NCBI GenBank assembly: GCA_029243025.1
Contig: JAQWSU010000006.1
Coordinates: forward strand, 434,001 to 498,000
DNA from: Pirellulaceae bacterium
GTDB taxonomy: Bacteria; Planctomycetota; Planctomycetia; Pirellulales; Pirellulaceae
Direction of reading: 5' to 3'
DNA: 64,000 nucleotides
Part shown: piece after piece, positions 53,362 to 63,500 of the stretch
Layout of the letters: every line of letters begins with the position of its first letter
Numbering within the stretch: the stretch's first letter is position 1
Notes under the pieces: generated by a model
Told to the model about the DNA's origin: nothing
Databases searched by the model: none
What the model saw: only the letters and a program-made list of their open reading frames with translations
Made by a program: the position numbers and the translations under genes

Positions 53362-54048
53362 ATGAACTCAACTCCAGAAGCCGTAAGCTGTTGCCGAGAC
53401 GAGTCCGAAGCGGCCGAGTCGGATCGGTTCGTTGTTTTTGAAAAACTTATTGACTGGCTGATCAGCTCTCATCCAGAGCAGATTCGTGATGACGTACGAA
53501 AATTGCGGGAACGATATCCGGAGGCTGCTGATGAAGAATTAGTAGAAAAACTGGTCAGCATCAAATCGATCAAAAATGGTTGGGTTGGAGCTGCGACAGG
53601 TGTGCCCGGATTCTTGGCGCTCCCCGTTGCGCTCCCCGTCGACCTGCTTGCTTCCTGGAAGATTCAAATCAATTTGGCGATGTGCATTGCACATATTTAC
53701 GGTAATGCTCTCGATCGTCGTGACGTGGAGCAACTGAAGACCGACATTCTCGCGATTATGGCTGGTTCAAGCAGCGAGGAGCCGATCGAAGTGATGGGTG
53801 TTGAAATTGATCAAGTGACTCAGCAGTCGGTTCGTCGCTATCTGACGCGCGAAGCGACCATCGAACTTTGGAAACATCTCGGGTTGCGCATGATCAGGAG
53901 GACCGGTTCCCGGTCGTTGGTGGGTCTTGCCAAAGTCGTACCGTTGGTTGGAGCACCAATCGGCTTCGCATTCGACTATGCCGCCACGCGTCGCATCGGA
54001 GAAAATGCTCGTCAATATTATGAGCGAGATAGCCGCGTGACGGTTTAA
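53362..54048 (+). CDS. EcsC-family-like protein
   Basis: 228 residues. After a charged N-terminus it has two hydrophobic stretches, NGWVGAATGVPGFLALPVALPVDLLASW and the C-terminal VVPLVGAPIGFAFDYAATRRIGENARQYY, typical of EcsC-like and related DUF proteins. These are thought to associate with membranes; function is unclear. GGAAGGAATG lies just ahead of the ATG. A bidirectional terminator candidate follows at 54118-54147. Confidence 0.7.
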   Translation: MNSTPEAVSCCRDESEAAESDRFVVFEKLIDWLISSHPEQIRDDVRKLRERYPEAADEELVEKLVSIKSIKNGWVGAATGVPGFLALPVALPVDLLASWKIQINLAMCIAHIYGNALDRRDVEQLKTDILAIMAGSSSEEPIEVMGVEIDQVTQQSVRRYLTREATIELWKHLGLRMIRRTGSRSLVGLAKVVPLVGAPIGFAFDYAATRRIGENARQYYERDSRVTV

Positions 54049-54117: not shown

Positions 54118-54147
54118 AAGCCACGCGAGTATCGTGTCGTGTGGCTT
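54118..54147. terminator. Bidirectional rho-independent terminator
   Basis: Arms AAGCCACGCGA (54118-54128) and TCGTGTGGCTT (54137-54147) pair over 11 positions with one G-U, around an eight-base loop. T-rich sequence follows (TGTGTTTTA), and AAAA precedes it, giving a T-run for the other strand. It sits between the convergent EcsC-like and selenoprotein genes and can serve both. Confidence 0.7.
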
Positions 54148-54163: not shown

Positions 54164-54511
54164 CTAGCAAAAAAGCTCTTCGTACGTTTCCTCGTTGAAT
54201 CCGACCATCAGCGTCTTGCCTTTTCGCAGGGTCGGTGCTCGGAGATTGCCCGTCGGGCCAAGGAGTAGTTTTTTGATCTCGTCGATGCTGGGTTTATCCT
54301 TTTTTAAATTGAGATGGACAACCTTTTTACCTTTGGCGGAATAGAGCTGATTGACTTGCTTCAGCAAGTCAAGTGCTCTGTCCTCTTTATAGGTGTCTTT
54401 TCTCGCATCGACCTCGACGGTCGCCTCAAGACCTGCATCCGCAAGGAACTCTTGCGTTTTCCCGCAGGTCTTTCAGCCAGGCCGGTGGTAACTCCAATCG
54501 ATTTTCGCCAT
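54164..54511 (-). CDS. ArsC/Spx-like selenoprotein (in-frame TGA = Sec)
   Basis: The obvious frame (54164-54367, 67 codons from a TTG) looks like the back half of an ArsC/Spx-like thioredoxin-fold protein (NLRAPTLRKGKTLMVGFNEETYEELF). Reading upstream, the same frame runs through one TGA (54473-54475) to an ATG at 54511 preceded by GAGAGGAC. The 115-residue product starts MAKIDWSYHRPG-U-KTCGKTQEFLADAGL, so the TGA falls exactly at the first Cys of the family CxxC motif. Right after it comes a SECIS-like stem-loop (54428-54475). Together these indicate selenocysteine insertion; it is probably a thiol-selenol reductase. The usual alternative, a pseudogene, is less likely because the frame is otherwise intact and the hairpin is present. 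Divergent from mutY. Confidence 0.82.
54428..54475 (-). promoter_or_regulatory. Bacterial SECIS element after the UGA
   Basis: Read on the minus strand from the UGA (54475-54473): a nine-base lower stem AAGACCTGC (54472-54464) pairs perfectly with GCAGGTCTT (54436-54428). Inside it is a 7/3 internal loop and an upper stem CGCAAG/CTTGCG (54456-54451 with 54445-54440) closing a five-base loop AGUUC. The loop begins 22 bases after the UGA and has G as its second base. This agrees with the bacterial SECIS model as I know it (loop roughly 16-37 bases downstream, G among the first two loop bases). Confidence 0.8.
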
Positions 54512-54639: not shown

Positions 54640-55734
54640 ATGAGTATTGCCGAAGATTTACCGGCACTCCCGGATGAGGAATGGAATCGGCGTTTTCGTC
54701 GTCGGTTGCTGGGCTGGTTTCGGAAAAATGCCCGCGATCTGCCGTGGCGTCGCTCGCAGGATCCTTACCCGATTTGGGTGAGCGAGATCATGCTGCAGCA
54801 AACCCAAGTGGAAACGGTCAAACCGTATTTTAAGCGATTTATCGAGCGTTTCCCCAACGTCCTGGCCCTTGCGAAGGCTGACGAGCAAGAGGTGCTGCAG
54901 TTGTGGGAAGGACTTGGTTACTACCGTCGAGCACGTCAATTGCACCGTGCGGCCAAAATCGTTCGGGATGAATATCAGGGACAATTTCCGCGGGATCCGG
55001 TTGATGTGATCGCGTTACCAGGAATTGGTCGCTACACGGCGGGGGCCATTCTTTCGATCGCCTTTGATGATCGTCAGCCGATTGTCGAAGGAAATACGAT
55101 TCGAGTTTACAGTCGTCTGCTTGCCTATCAACAAGATCCACGTTCCTCGGCCGGACAACGGCTCTTATGGGCTTTTGCCGCCTCAATTCTGCCACAACGC
55201 AAGGCGGGCCAACTCAATCAAGCGTTGATGGAGTTGGGCAGCGAACTGTGTCGTCCGCGATCACCGCAGTGCGATTGCTGCCCAGTCAACGAACTGTGCC
55301 CAACCAACGCTCACGGTTGGCAAGAAAAGATTCCGGTGGCTGGAAAGAAAGTCGCCTACGAAGATTTGCACGAGGTTGCTGTCGTGGTGCAACGTCGCGG
55401 TATGATCTTGATCCGTCAGTGTGCCGAAGGTGAACGGTGGGCTGGACTTTGGGACTTTCCTCGATTTTCGGTCAGAGAGGGGCAGAGCCTGCCTGCACAG
55501 ATCCCTGAACAAGTGCGGGGACTCACGGGTGTTACGGTGGGCGGTTGCCGTTTGCTAACCGAGATGAAGCATGTAGTGACGCGCTACCGGATCACGCTTA
55601 GCTGTTTTCAAGCGGATTATCAATCGGGTCGCAAACTTCCCGGAACCGATTGCCAGTGGATTAAGCCAAATCAGCTGTCTGACTTTCCGCTCAGTGTCAC
55701 CGGACGCAAGATAAGCAAGATGGTCAAAAGTTGA
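54640..55734 (+). CDS. mutY: A/G-specific adenine DNA glycosylase
   Basis: 364 residues. It removes adenine mispaired with 8-oxoguanine. The catalytic Glu is E49 (WVSEIMLQQTQVETV), followed by the helix-hairpin-helix LPGIGRYTAGAI, the Fe-S cluster cysteines in CRPRSPQCDCCPVNELC (Cx6Cx2Cx5C) and a C-terminal Nudix-like domain (EVAVVVQRRGMILIRQ to HVVTRYRITLSCF). The second catalytic residue, Asp138 in E. coli (LDGNV), is Glu here (E150 in PIVEGNTIRV), at the same 101-residue distance from the first. It is divergent from the selenoprotein gene, with 128 bases between. Confidence 0.95.
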   Translation: MSIAEDLPALPDEEWNRRFRRRLLGWFRKNARDLPWRRSQDPYPIWVSEIMLQQTQVETVKPYFKRFIERFPNVLALAKADEQEVLQLWEGLGYYRRARQLHRAAKIVRDEYQGQFPRDPVDVIALPGIGRYTAGAILSIAFDDRQPIVEGNTIRVYSRLLAYQQDPRSSAGQRLLWAFAASILPQRKAGQLNQALMELGSELCRPRSPQCDCCPVNELCPTNAHGWQEKIPVAGKKVAYEDLHEVAVVVQRRGMILIRQCAEGERWAGLWDFPRFSVREGQSLPAQIPEQVRGLTGVTVGGCRLLTEMKHVVTRYRITLSCFQADYQSGRKLPGTDCQWIKPNQLSDFPLSVTGRKISKMVKS

Positions 55735-58423: not shown

Positions 58424-60121
58424 CTACCCGAATGGATCCTCACCGTCACCCGCTCCGAATGGATTCCCTTCGTCTGCGTCATCCGCTCCGAATGGATCCT
58501 CACCGTCACCCGCTCCGAATGGATCCCCTTCGTCTGCGTCACCCGCTCCGAATGGATCCTCGCCGTCACCCGCTCCGAATGGATCCCCTTCGTCTGCGTC
58601 ACCCGCTCCGAATGGGTCGTCATCTCCGGCGGCCGGATTATTCAGCCTGCCGGCGTCGGGCGTGGGTGGACTAAATTCGTCGCGACTCGCTCCGGAATCA
58701 GAAGCCGGTTGATTTGCTTGCTTCGTTTTGTCTGTGGTGGGTTGAGGGAGTGAAGCATGAATCGTTGGCAAGGGGGCATGTATCTCTCGCAGGCACTGGA
58801 TAGTTCCATCACTTGCTGCCAGATAGATGCGGTCAGTCAGACGGTTCGTGATCGGCAAGTCATATCCCGATACGTCCAACGACATCACTCGACCGCCCGT
58901 TTTCGGATCGAGACCATGCATCACACCTTGTTGATCGAGAACGTACAAACGCGTGTCACTGGCGGCGACGATGCGTTTGATACCGGTCACCAGCCATTGC
59001 TGGAAACCATCGGAGCTTCCAACGGCATGTAAGTTGCCAAATTCGGTAATCGCGTAAATCCGCTCATTGTCACTGAATAGCGATTCGTGGATCGGTTCTC
59101 CTGTGGCATATTGCCACTCGATTTCACCATCGCCTTCGTCAAGGCAGTAGATGAATCCGTCCGATGATCCGACAGCTAAGCGATCTGGTTTGACGAATAC
59201 TGTTTGTCCGTGAATCGGTCCGCTTGTGCGAACCATATACTGGACTTCGGGTTTCTTCTCGATATTGCATACGTAGGCGCGGCCACCCTCGGTGGGCCAA
59301 CTGATTGTACGAGGACTTGCCGTGATCGGAGCGGAAACTTGGCTGCCTGAGTGATAGTACCAAGTGGGTCGTTGGTAAGGTAGCTGATCGGGCTTGCGAA
59401 CAGGATCGTCCTCACTCGGTAGCCAATGTCCTTCAATTTGACCATTGCTTGTGGGAGCGAATGCTAGTTTTTGGGTGAGCACGGGTCCAATGATGGGATT
59501 ATTCTGAAGAGATCGTTTCCAGACTTGTTCCCCCGTTTCACGCTCCAGCAGATACAAACTCGATCCGTTGATCACGGAAACGTACTTGTCGTTTGCGGCA
59601 GGATTCAACGTTTGATAACTCGGTCGACCGACGAGAATGGCCCACAATGTTTGCCCATTTTCCGCGTCGATAGCCTGAACGGTTCCGGAGTTCGTTTGAA
59701 TGTAGAGAACGCTTCTCGGAACCCGCTTTTCTTCAATCGTTGTTTGATATCCACGTGCGTCGAGGCGAATCTTTTCTTTTTCTGCGAGTCGAGCTGCCTC
59801 GGCGTCACCGATCGCTTTGCCGTCTCGACCGAGATCGATCGCACTAAACCGTCGGATGCCCTTGTCGTACTTCACTTCGTAAACAGGGTAAGAATTCGCG
59901 AGATAATCCTCATAGGAATCGAGGCCGAGCAGCTGGAGATGAGCGTTTGCCGCCGCAGATCGATCGCGATCGAGCTCGGCTTGGGACGTCCAAGCGACTT
60001 CTAGACCGGCTCGTCGGTAGTCGGTTGGGCCGGAAAACGACCTTCTCAGCTGGCCCCAGGCGCTGCTGCAAACCAGGAGGAGAAAAGGCAATACGAGACA
60101 CGATTTGTGGTAGCGAAGCAT
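58424..60121 (-). CDS. Secreted PQQ-like propeller with DPFG repeats
   Basis: About 565 residues from the ATG at 60121, which has TGAGG upstream. A signal peptide (LPFLLLVCSSAWGQ) is followed by a helical stretch and a PQQ-type beta-propeller: YIQTNSGTVQAIDAENGQTLWAI, SLYLLERETGEQVWKRSL, GFIYCLDEGDGEIEWQYATG, LYVLDQQGVMHGLDPKTGGRV. The C-terminus is three copies of a 20-residue unit of acidic DPFGAGD(A/G)D(E)G type, a tail also seen in planctomycete secreted proteins. It may bind or scaffold other proteins like BamB; an enzymatic role is not supported. Confidence 0.85.
   Translation of the reverse strand: MLRYHKSCLVLPFLLLVCSSAWGQLRRSFSGPTDYRRAGLEVAWTSQAELDRDRSAAANAHLQLLGLDSYEDYLANSYPVYEVKYDKGIRRFSAIDLGRDGKAIGDAEAARLAEKEKIRLDARGYQTTIEEKRVPRSVLYIQTNSGTVQAIDAENGQTLWAILVGRPSYQTLNPAANDKYVSVINGSSLYLLERETGEQVWKRSLQNNPIIGPVLTQKLAFAPTSNGQIEGHWLPSEDDPVRKPDQLPYQRPTWYYHSGSQVSAPITASPRTISWPTEGGRAYVCNIEKKPEVQYMVRTSGPIHGQTVFVKPDRLAVGSSDGFIYCLDEGDGEIEWQYATGEPIHESLFSDNERIYAITEFGNLHAVGSSDGFQQWLVTGIKRIVAASDTRLYVLDQQGVMHGLDPKTGGRVMSLDVSGYDLPITNRLTDRIYLAASDGTIQCLREIHAPLPTIHASLPQPTTDKTKQANQPASDSGASRDEFSPPTPDAGRLNNPAAGDDDPFGAGDADEGDPFGAGDGEDPFGAGDADEGDPFGAGDGEDPFGADDADEGNPFGAGDGEDPFG
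58432..58614 (-). repeat. 60-base tandem repeat, three copies
   Basis: Three near-identical 60-base units in the 3' end of the propeller-protein gene, each coding 20 residues of the acidic Gly-Asp-rich, DPFGAGD-type repeat. Copies differ at only a few bases, suggesting recent expansion or gene conversion. Confidence 0.95.
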
Positions 60122-60596
60122 GAATAACCTCAAACACATCGGGCCCAGATAGGCCGAATTGCTAGACTAAGCCGCCATGCGGCCGATGAAGGACGCCGAA
60201 ATCTGCACGATTCTCGAGTCCCTCGTCCGTTCCGGTGTCCTTTCATGATAGTCGATCGGGCCATTCAATTCCGGGAAAAACACCGATTCGGCGGCAGATC
60301 GGCAAAAGCGACCTGCTTGTGTTTCGGATGCTTAACGGTTATCCCGTTGGGGGGCCCATGGACCGGTGGCCGCGGCGAATCTACGATGGGAGATCGTAAA
60401 AATCATCAAACAAAAGACGCTGGTGCGGAAGACAGTTGGTACTGAGCCGAAAGTGAATGCCGAATTTCAGGCCTTAAGGCGACCGTCGCCGAAGGGGCTT
60501 TCAGCAAGCTTCTCGATTCGCGAATTGTTGTTTTCGACGGCTAACCTGTCCATTTTATCGTACCCGACCCATTTATACGTGTAAGAGGAGTAGGGA
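60122..60596. other. 475-base spacer before the large unknown gene
   Basis: Divergent spacer between the propeller gene and the large gene. The short frames in it have no protein-like composition. It ends with a strong AAGAGGAGTAGGGA ribosome-binding site for the next gene. I could not place a convincing promoter or RNA element. Confidence 0.5.
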
Positions 60597-63500
60597 ATGG
60601 AGCTTCGAGATCTTGGTCCCGACGGCCAGCAAGCTCTCGAACAGACTCTGGGCTACCTGAATTTCTCGTCTGGAGCGTCTGACAATCAGTTTTTGCTGAA
60701 TTTGAATCAGCTATTCGCTCTGATTGAAGACCAGCTCTTGTCAGATGCCGCTCCCGCCCACCGGCGTCTCAAGACGGAGCCCGTGCCGAATTGGCAGGTC
60801 GTTGGAACGCTTTGGCGCGAAAAACTGGCCGAATTGACGGGAGTCGTACCGGCATTTGAGGACACGACCCAAGTGGTCGCGGTCTTGAATCTTCTCTTGG
60901 ATCATGTGGTCCCCGGAGTTCGTGATTTCCATCGTGATCTGTTGTTTCATCAGTCCGACAATGCTTTGCTCACCCCGTTGCTGATCGGCCGGATTTGCGA
61001 AGTTGTATTGCGACAGGGGGCACCTTGGGACGAGATCGATCGAATTACCGAGTCTGCGATCCGCGAGTTGAATGACTACGTGGGTTACCGTCCGGTCGCC
61101 GTATTGGAATCGCGCGTTCTCGAGCCCTATCCTCATGAAAAAGTGAGGCCCATTCCGCTTTTCATCCAAGGAGTGGGAGTAGCTCATGGTCCCTACCAAG
61201 AAGTCATCGCGCTTGCCCTGAAGATCATTAACGAAATTGACCCCATGGTGTTGCAGGCGGCCTGTTTCGTACCAGAGCATCTCGAGGAATTGGCTCTCGA
61301 TCCTCGAGCCTATGACTTTGAACATCCTGTGAACAAAAGGCCGAATTACCATTTTGGGCAATGGGATCCACACTCGATTGACAACCGCGGTTTCTATAAC
61401 CGATTCGTGATTCAACAAGTGACGCTCGACGCGTTGATGAATCGGATTGGATCGACACACAAGATTCCCGATAAAGAAGTGAAATTCGAAGCTGCTGCGG
61501 TACTCGTTGGAACCATTTTGATGGCATCCGGAGTCAGCGGTACGGGGCCGGATTTTCATGACTCGAGCATCACGCTGGGGAATTTGCTCCCGCGCATTGC
61601 GACTTTCCGAGACGTGTTTTATGAGCAGTTGATCGACCAACTTCAGCAACATGATCCAAAGCACGCTGAGCGACTGGTGGAAGAGTCACAAAGGTTGCGG
61701 CAACCGTTTGGTGCAGCCCGACAGCATCTCAACTCGCAATTGACTCGCCAGCGAGCGTCACAACTCGAACATGTTCGCTTAGCCAGTTTATTTGCCAGAA
61801 TGGGATATCCCGAAGCAGCCCAACGGCAGATTAATTCGCTGCCCGTGACCTCGGCCAGAATGCTTTGCCGCATTGATTGCAACCTGACCTTGAGTCAGCG
61901 TGATATCGATGACGGCAACCTGATACGAGCCGAGCAGTGGCTTGATGATACCCGCGAGTTGCTCACTCGTGGCATTCAGTGCGGAGCGGTAATCGACCCT
62001 TGGAATATTTTGGGTTTCGACGGCAACTTCAGTCTGTTCCCGGCGATGGAGAATAGCATTCACGATCATCGCGTGGACGAAATGCTGGAGCTGATTGACG
62101 AGGTATTTGAAACGTATGGCCGACTTTGGAGTGCGGCAGCAGCCTCGGATGATCAAGAGTTAGGCGATCAGGTGAACGCGAAATTTAAAGAATTTGCTCG
62201 CTGGTGGCATCAATTTGCCGTGCACGAAGTGAGTTGTGTTGACGCTTCTGATTGCCTGGAATTGCATCGCGCGGCCGAGGATGTGGTCGATGCATTGAAT
62301 CATTGGCATAAGGCAGGTGAAGCCACAGGAGCCATCCGTTTTTGGGCTCCTTATGTCGAACGCTTTGATGCGCCTCGGGCCTATGCCATGGTGATTGAAA
62401 TGCTGTTGGATCGTCGCGACGTGGTTGCAGCGCGTGCACTCCTGATTCATTGGCTGGGTCAAGCCGATGTTACGCCTCTGGAGCAAGGTGAGGATTCATT
62501 TCATCGGCTGTCGATGCGATGGTTACTGGAAGTTTTGGGACTGAAGCCCAAGTCCGGAGCATCGATCGATGTGCCGGGTCCGGCGCCGCCGGAAACCTGG
62601 AGACGCGTGCAGAAATTCTTTGATTACATGGAGGCAAACGCCGGAGATTATTGGCATGTGCCTCCATTCGGACTTGGCGGTGCTGATGAAACCTCTGATG
62701 GCCCGGATGGCTCCGAGAACTCCGATGAGCCGTTCATGGATGATGAGGAGGAAGATCAGGACGATGAAGATGATCTGTTCGGAGCGGCCTACGAAGATGT
62801 CGTCTACCGTGATAGTACTGATGACGGTATCGAAGGAAGCCTGTTCGACTCGGGAGGGGGAAATGATGATCAGCTTGACCTATTGCATGATCAAATTGCG
62901 GGACGGCTCTCTTTCCTTAATTCTCTTGCGCGGCTACGACGAATTGCAGCACTTGCGTGGATGCTGGCCCCTGCCGATGGGGACGATGGTGGGCAGTGGT
63001 TTGAGGAGAGTTTGAAGCATTGGTTGCAGCACGGTGCTCAAATTCGCGAGTCACTCGAGCGACTATTGGCCGAGGTCAGTCGATATCGACTAGGAAGACC
63101 CTCCCACGATTATCTATCGATGGCTGAATTCGATCGCGAGCGCATGATTAAAGAGTCGCTGATGGAACATGTCATCGGTGCCAGTGTTGAAATCAGCCAA
63201 ACAGATCAGTTCATCCACTGTGCCTTGCGACATTCGGAAATTGACCTGCCAGCCGATCAGGCGGCCGCCATTCGTTTGCTCAGAAGTGCCATTCAAGGAC
63301 AGCAAGCCGAAACGGAAGTTGCCTGGGCCGAATTGAAAACGGCTCTCAGTACGGAGCCGATTCTGTATGTTCCTCTTGTGCGGGGTGGGAATCCAAGGAA
63401 TATCGTAGAAGTTCGTAACCGACAGCAAATGCTGCGAGTCCTTTTGGCTTGGTTGCCTCGCCTGGGTTTGCTCACCGAGACCCGCGACCTGATCGACGTG

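Follow-up and report, generated by a model that had tools for sequence, protein, structure and literature searches.

Does the TGA at codon 13 of a short minus-strand frame (54511-54164) in this planctomycete DNA end a protein, or is it read as selenocysteine (Sec)? Within the 64,000-nucleotide stretch that was analyzed (the window), the frame encodes 115 residues from an ATG at 54511 to a TAG stop at 54166-54164, and it is open throughout apart from this single TGA (54475-54473). Upon translation, the codon falls in the motif G-U-K-T-C, where it would be the first residue of a UxxC motif whose second residue, Cys16 (codon at 54464-54466), is the presumed resolving thiol. The sequence GAGAGG, which resembles a ribosome-binding site, lies 9 nt before the ATG (54526-54521). 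These features agree with an earlier, sequence-only reading of the locus, which had pointed out a TGA at the first Cys position of CxxC, an intact frame on both sides of it, and a ribosome-binding site and ATG upstream. As that reading also expected, this frame appears in a mechanical ORF list just as a 67-residue piece with a TTG start (54367-54164). Another candidate TGA, at 62542 on the plus strand of the window, is one among several TGA codons in its translated stretch and was set aside.

Genomic context of the gene

The gene is flanked by an EcsC-family gene (53362-54048), which converges with it, and by a MutY-type gene with HhH-GPD and NUDIX domains, which starts at 54640 and diverges from it. 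Among 81 loci of the family, we found no conserved operon or partner gene: the largest cluster of neighbors is present at 13 loci in varying positions, with many of the contigs being short, and the MutY cluster is present at 4 loci, counting the window's own. In the gap that separates the selenoprotein gene from the EcsC-type gene, the plus strand has a terminator-like stem followed by T (54118-54147); one such element was found and 1.0 was expected from shuffled sequences. Elsewhere in the window, a 571-residue ORF on the minus strand (58424-60139), which we take to be PQQ-repeat-like, has tandem repeats of the DPFGAGDxDEG type at its end, and the opposite strand carries repetitive ORFs.

Family, fold and likely function

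The full product matches positions 1-107 of the 107-position NCBIfam model NF041106 (ArsC_rel_Se_1, 'ArsC family (seleno)protein') with 144.5 bits against a cut-off of 85. It shares with this family the UxxC motif and the existence of Cys homologues; an outer stem in its SECIS element, which the family does not keep, sets it apart, and otherwise nothing about it is distinctive. The product also matches Pfam ArsC (PF03960) with 37.4 bits, above the gathering score of 24, whereas its 44.4 bits with the Spx/MgsR model TIGR01617 fall below the cut-off of 75.05. The AlphaFold model (mean pLDDT 93.8, pTM 0.86) has an ArsC/Spx-like thioredoxin fold in which a helix spanning residues 14-25 begins directly after U13. 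The best matches of the model in the PDB are Spx and ArsC-like proteins, and the first eight rows of the Foldseek search are all Spx or the Spx-type protein 3l78 of S. mutans. VIA-align gave a Z score of 9.3 for 3gkx (rmsd 2.7, 90 aligned residues) and 9.0 for 3ihq (rmsd 2.8, 88 aligned residues). In a profile of 41 sequences (the window and 40 of the 80 named loci) used for structure alignment, U13 falls opposite Cys10 of Spx (3gfk) and C16 opposite its Cys13. The protein thus shares with Spx (1z3e, 6ghb, 3gfk) both the fold and the position of the CxxC motif, with Sec replacing the first Cys.

We take cd03032 to be the ArsC_Spx domain. The 2008 ocean GOS survey lists 'Arsenate reductase 2, cd03032, UxxC, 42 selenoproteins, 238 Cys homologs' (PMC2398784), and a 2026 catalogue (PMC13188914), which attributes the family to this survey (Zhang and Gladyshev 2008), has the entry 'Arsenate reductase-like protein, NF041106, UxxC'. 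The window protein has the same UxxC motif as Arsenate reductase 2, and the two are likened by this motif and by the family credit, not residue by residue. ArsC-like selenoproteins were also listed in 2006 (PMC1794560) and planctomycete selenoproteins were described in 2016 (PMC4807772); ArsC and arsenate terms are absent from the main text of PMC5029168 and PMC12013277. The suspicion, already voiced from the sequence, that Sec-containing ArsC-like proteins had been reported before was therefore right: the gene belongs to a selenoprotein family that is already in the databases and the literature. We found no experimental study of the NF041106 family in the open-licence PMC literature.

The name given to the family in the catalogue (PMC13188914), the PF03960 match, and the presence of ArsC structures (e.g., 3f0i) with the same fold among the structural matches would suit a true Sec-containing arsenate reductase, in which U13 attacks arsenate and detoxifies it. 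However, arsenate-reducing ArsC has a CxxS-type active site with a single catalytic Cys, according to PMC2757866, and other ArsC-type proteins have Cxx(S/V), whereas the window protein has UxxC. In addition, its nearest solved structures are those of Spx, its flanking genes are of the MutY and EcsC types rather than arsenic genes, and clusters of neighbors are common to no more than 13 of the 81 loci. Arsenate reduction is therefore an unlikely function for this protein. The similarity to Spx raises another question, namely whether the protein is a selenium-based regulator and not an enzyme, with a U13-C16 selenenylsulfide as a very fast redox switch on RNA polymerase alpha binding. Such a role would be in line with the alignment of both residues with the Spx cysteines, with the Foldseek result, and with a gene that stands alone, but the score under the Spx/MgsR cut-off argues against it, and a fast Sec nucleophile would be better suited to catalysis than to sensing; we regard this role, too, as improbable. 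Because of the UxxC motif, the thioredoxin fold and the lack of a partner gene, a general Sec-containing thiol-disulfide oxidoreductase is the most likely function. In this enzyme, U13 would be the attacking selenolate at the start of helix 1, and C16 would resolve the intermediate as a selenenylsulfide.

Sec machinery and distribution of the gene

To be decoded as Sec, the TGA depends on a dedicated machinery, and the sequence-only reading had proposed to look for it. The window's own genome carries selA and selB next to each other on contig 2, with scores of 570 and 365 bits, respectively, and tRNA-Sec (64.7 bits, anticodon UCA) lies on the same contig, about 29 kb from them. The fourth component, selD (352 bits), is located on contig 60 (L123:1563-2621, plus strand) and has an in-frame TGA of its own in the motif CAGUAGK. 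Judged from this codon, selenophosphate synthetase, the selD product, is probably itself a selenoprotein, so that the cell probably has two or more selenoproteins.

We then compared the gene among 98 genomes, the window's own and 97 relatives. The gene is present in 26 of them: 22 genomes carry a single TGA and the other 4 have Cys in its place, so that the xxxC motif always begins with Sec or Cys. Nineteen of the 22 TGA-bearing genomes have selA over the cut-off, and the TGA form is associated with selA across the 98 genomes (p 0.006). The three others (G003, G084 and G086) have no selA over the cut-off, while tRNA-Sec is over the cut-off in G003 and G084 but not in G086. The phylum was also sampled evenly, with 294 genomes, 64 of which hold a total of 65 matches above the family cut-off; 55 of these matches have one TGA and 10 have no stop, nine of the latter reading Cys and the tenth (L133) being unparsed. 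Thus, Cys stands at position 13 in all four TGA-less relatives and in 9 of the 10 stop-free matches of the phylum sample, as the sequence-only reading had suggested checking. Of the 191 genomes in this sample with selA over the cut-off, 53 have a TGA form that passes the family cut-off, compared with 2 of the 103 without (Fisher p 3e-9), and 7 of the 9 genomes with only the Cys form are without selA over the cut-off (residue versus selA, p 2e-6); these counts were read by hand, and lack of selA in G237, G246, G268 and G358 means absence from the list of selA-matched genomes. G268 and G358 are the two of these four that carry the TGA. The assemblies of G003, G084, G086, G268 and G358 each consist of 100 or more contigs. 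Taken together, the Sec form of the gene tracks selA.

One genome of the phylum sample (G142) has two family members, one with the TGA (L135) and one without a stop (L133). Among the best 80 of 582 named hits, the record titles name Planctomycetota, Acidobacteria, Methylomirabilota, Rokubacteria, Verrucomicrobia and others. One record (L092) is titled as a Klebsiella pneumoniae MAG, but the tree places its gene together with one from the phylum of the window, and the title is probably a wrong label.

The hairpin following the TGA

Starting at the TGA, a stretch of 51 nt folds at -23.8 kcal/mol (z -5.11), whereas 200 dinucleotide shuffles average -11.1 kcal/mol and none of them (0/200) is as stable. 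By this measure, the TGA ranks second of the 2458 TGA triplets that the window contains on its two strands, and it is the sole one followed by a hairpin pattern that was taken from the ArsC-like selenoprotein family itself. The fold consists of two parts. An outer stem of 10 pairs (nine Watson-Crick and one G-U) starts at the base right after the TGA and spans 54472-54428 on the minus strand, with arms at 54472-54463 and 54437-54428. It encloses an inner stem of 6 pairs, CGCAAG/CUUGCG, with the loop AGUUC (54456-54440). In the window, a sixth inner pair of the family hairpin (A-C) is open, which gives the five-base loop. Most of the folding energy comes from the outer stem, since the inner hairpin by itself reaches just -6.7 kcal/mol. 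The bSECIS model, as given in PMC13188914, has a stem of 4-16 bp, a loop of 3-9 nt with G in its first two positions, a distance of 16-37 nt from the UGA, and an MFE at or below -7.5. The element in the window fits this model with its 6-bp stem, G as the second base of the loop, 22 nt from UGA to loop, and -23.8 kcal/mol, although the energy limit is reached only with the outer stem. Because the sixth pair is open and the inner hairpin alone is this weak, the outer stem may help in the window. No match to the window was found in Rfam at gathering scores.

Comparison across the family separated the two parts. In 22 Sec sequences (the window and 21 relatives), the inner hairpin is the only structure predicted in common, with 98.5% of cells paired. 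The outer stem was rejected as a conserved SECIS element, as 44.1% of its cells are paired in the same sequences versus 43.9% in shuffles. The sequence-only reading had described a nine-base stem at the base after the TGA and an inner stem-loop with G in the loop; both indeed fold in the window, but the outer stem, which it emphasized, is not kept across the family.

A larger set, in which genes were not selected for the hairpin, comprised 106 loci representing 94 distinct genes (87 Sec and 7 Cys). All 87 Sec genes have the loop G, and 509 of 522 stem cells are paired in these genes versus 20 of 42 in the 7 Cys genes. Compensatory changes account for 17 cells at three of the six pairs in the Sec genes. 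The hairpin also leaves a mark on the codons that it overlaps: Leu is encoded by CTT in 81 of 87 Sec genes versus 9.1% elsewhere within the same genes, and Glu by GAG in 77 of 77 versus 46.8% elsewhere. The hairpin RNA constrains codon choice at both residues.

Adding the phylum set, in which 4 of 64 fetched stretches were unparsed by motif (L133, L160, L170 and L188), and reducing the joined sets by identical protein yielded 154 proteins, 138 Sec and 16 Cys. Using a criterion of at least four consecutive pairs beside the loop G, we placed 114 of the 138 Sec genes into hairpin registers. In one register (89 genes), 99.1% of cells are paired and 20, spread over four of the six pairs, are compensatory, versus 2.3 in shuffles; in another, offset by a single base (22 genes, 21 distinct), 98.6% are paired and 11, spread over four of the seven pairs, are compensatory, versus 1.4. 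Both paired percentages are raised by the selection for four or more pairs, and related sequences can beat such shuffles without structure; slid versions of the registers have at most 63.5% of cells paired.

Five more genes (L119, L166, L167, L171 and L173) were counted by eye as having the GU loop, and 19 of the 138 distinct Sec genes remain without such a hairpin (L135, L136, L145, L148-L150, L152-L154, L162, L168, L169, L174, L175, L177, L179, L181, L184 and L187), none of them among the 87 nearest. All 19 have an Asp-containing motif, such as RADAFLE, replacing QEFLA. When 18 of them were aligned and folded with RNAalifold, leaving out L154 as nearly identical to L152, no shared structure emerged, and their single folds have z from +0.43 to -2.41. 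These members may use another, undescribed type of bacterial SECIS. In one Sec gene (L102), Arg replaces the Cys of UxxC (UxxR).

With the hairpin covarying, the machinery complete and the same single TGA present in open frames of 21 other genomes, which argues against both sequencing error and decay, there is hardly any chance that the gene is a decayed or truncated one with an ordinary stop, or the product of a sequencing error, even though the mechanical ORF list gives just a 67-residue piece. None of the findings that the sequence-only reading had named as damaging to it, namely missing sel genes, relatives with a plain stop and scattered frame damage, or a misread base, was encountered.

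Exchange of Sec and Cys

Sec and Cys both occur at position 13 in the family. In a tree of the 154 proteins, the Cys label requires 12 changes and three labels require 16 overall, but well-supported branches (24 of 151 inner ones) force no more than 2. Exchange of Sec and Cys has thus likely happened repeatedly, in a number that is unsure. Two of the 16 Cys genes (L116 and L125) keep five of the six SECIS pairs but not the loop G, and their stems look like a relic of a recent change from Sec to Cys.

Implications

The frame, the family membership, the conserved and covarying hairpin, and the presence of the Sec machinery all support the same account. We are confident, though short of certain, that this is a planctomycete selenoprotein gene of the NF041106 family whose UGA codon 13 is decoded through SelB and the hairpin, and whose product probably acts as a stand-alone thiol-disulfide oxidoreductase of the thioredoxin fold. 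SelB with Sec-tRNA-Sec would read the UGA, directed by the hairpin that begins 17 nt after it, and the resulting 115-residue protein would carry U13-x-x-C16. On the evidence of the NF041106 match, the conserved TGA and the machinery, the proposal of a Sec-containing ArsC/Spx-like redox protein appears sound, and the organism very probably uses an in-frame UGA for Sec in this small protein.

By itself, this gene adds one more member to a family already on record and leaves the ideas of the field as they were. It does illustrate that a selenoprotein missed by plain ORF calling can be strongly argued for from nothing but sequence, on the grounds of family membership, Sec machinery and compensatory changes within a hairpin of the coding region. 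Across the family, the SECIS stem has been rewritten while the loop was kept, and the family is a good test bed for the mutual replacement of Sec and Cys.
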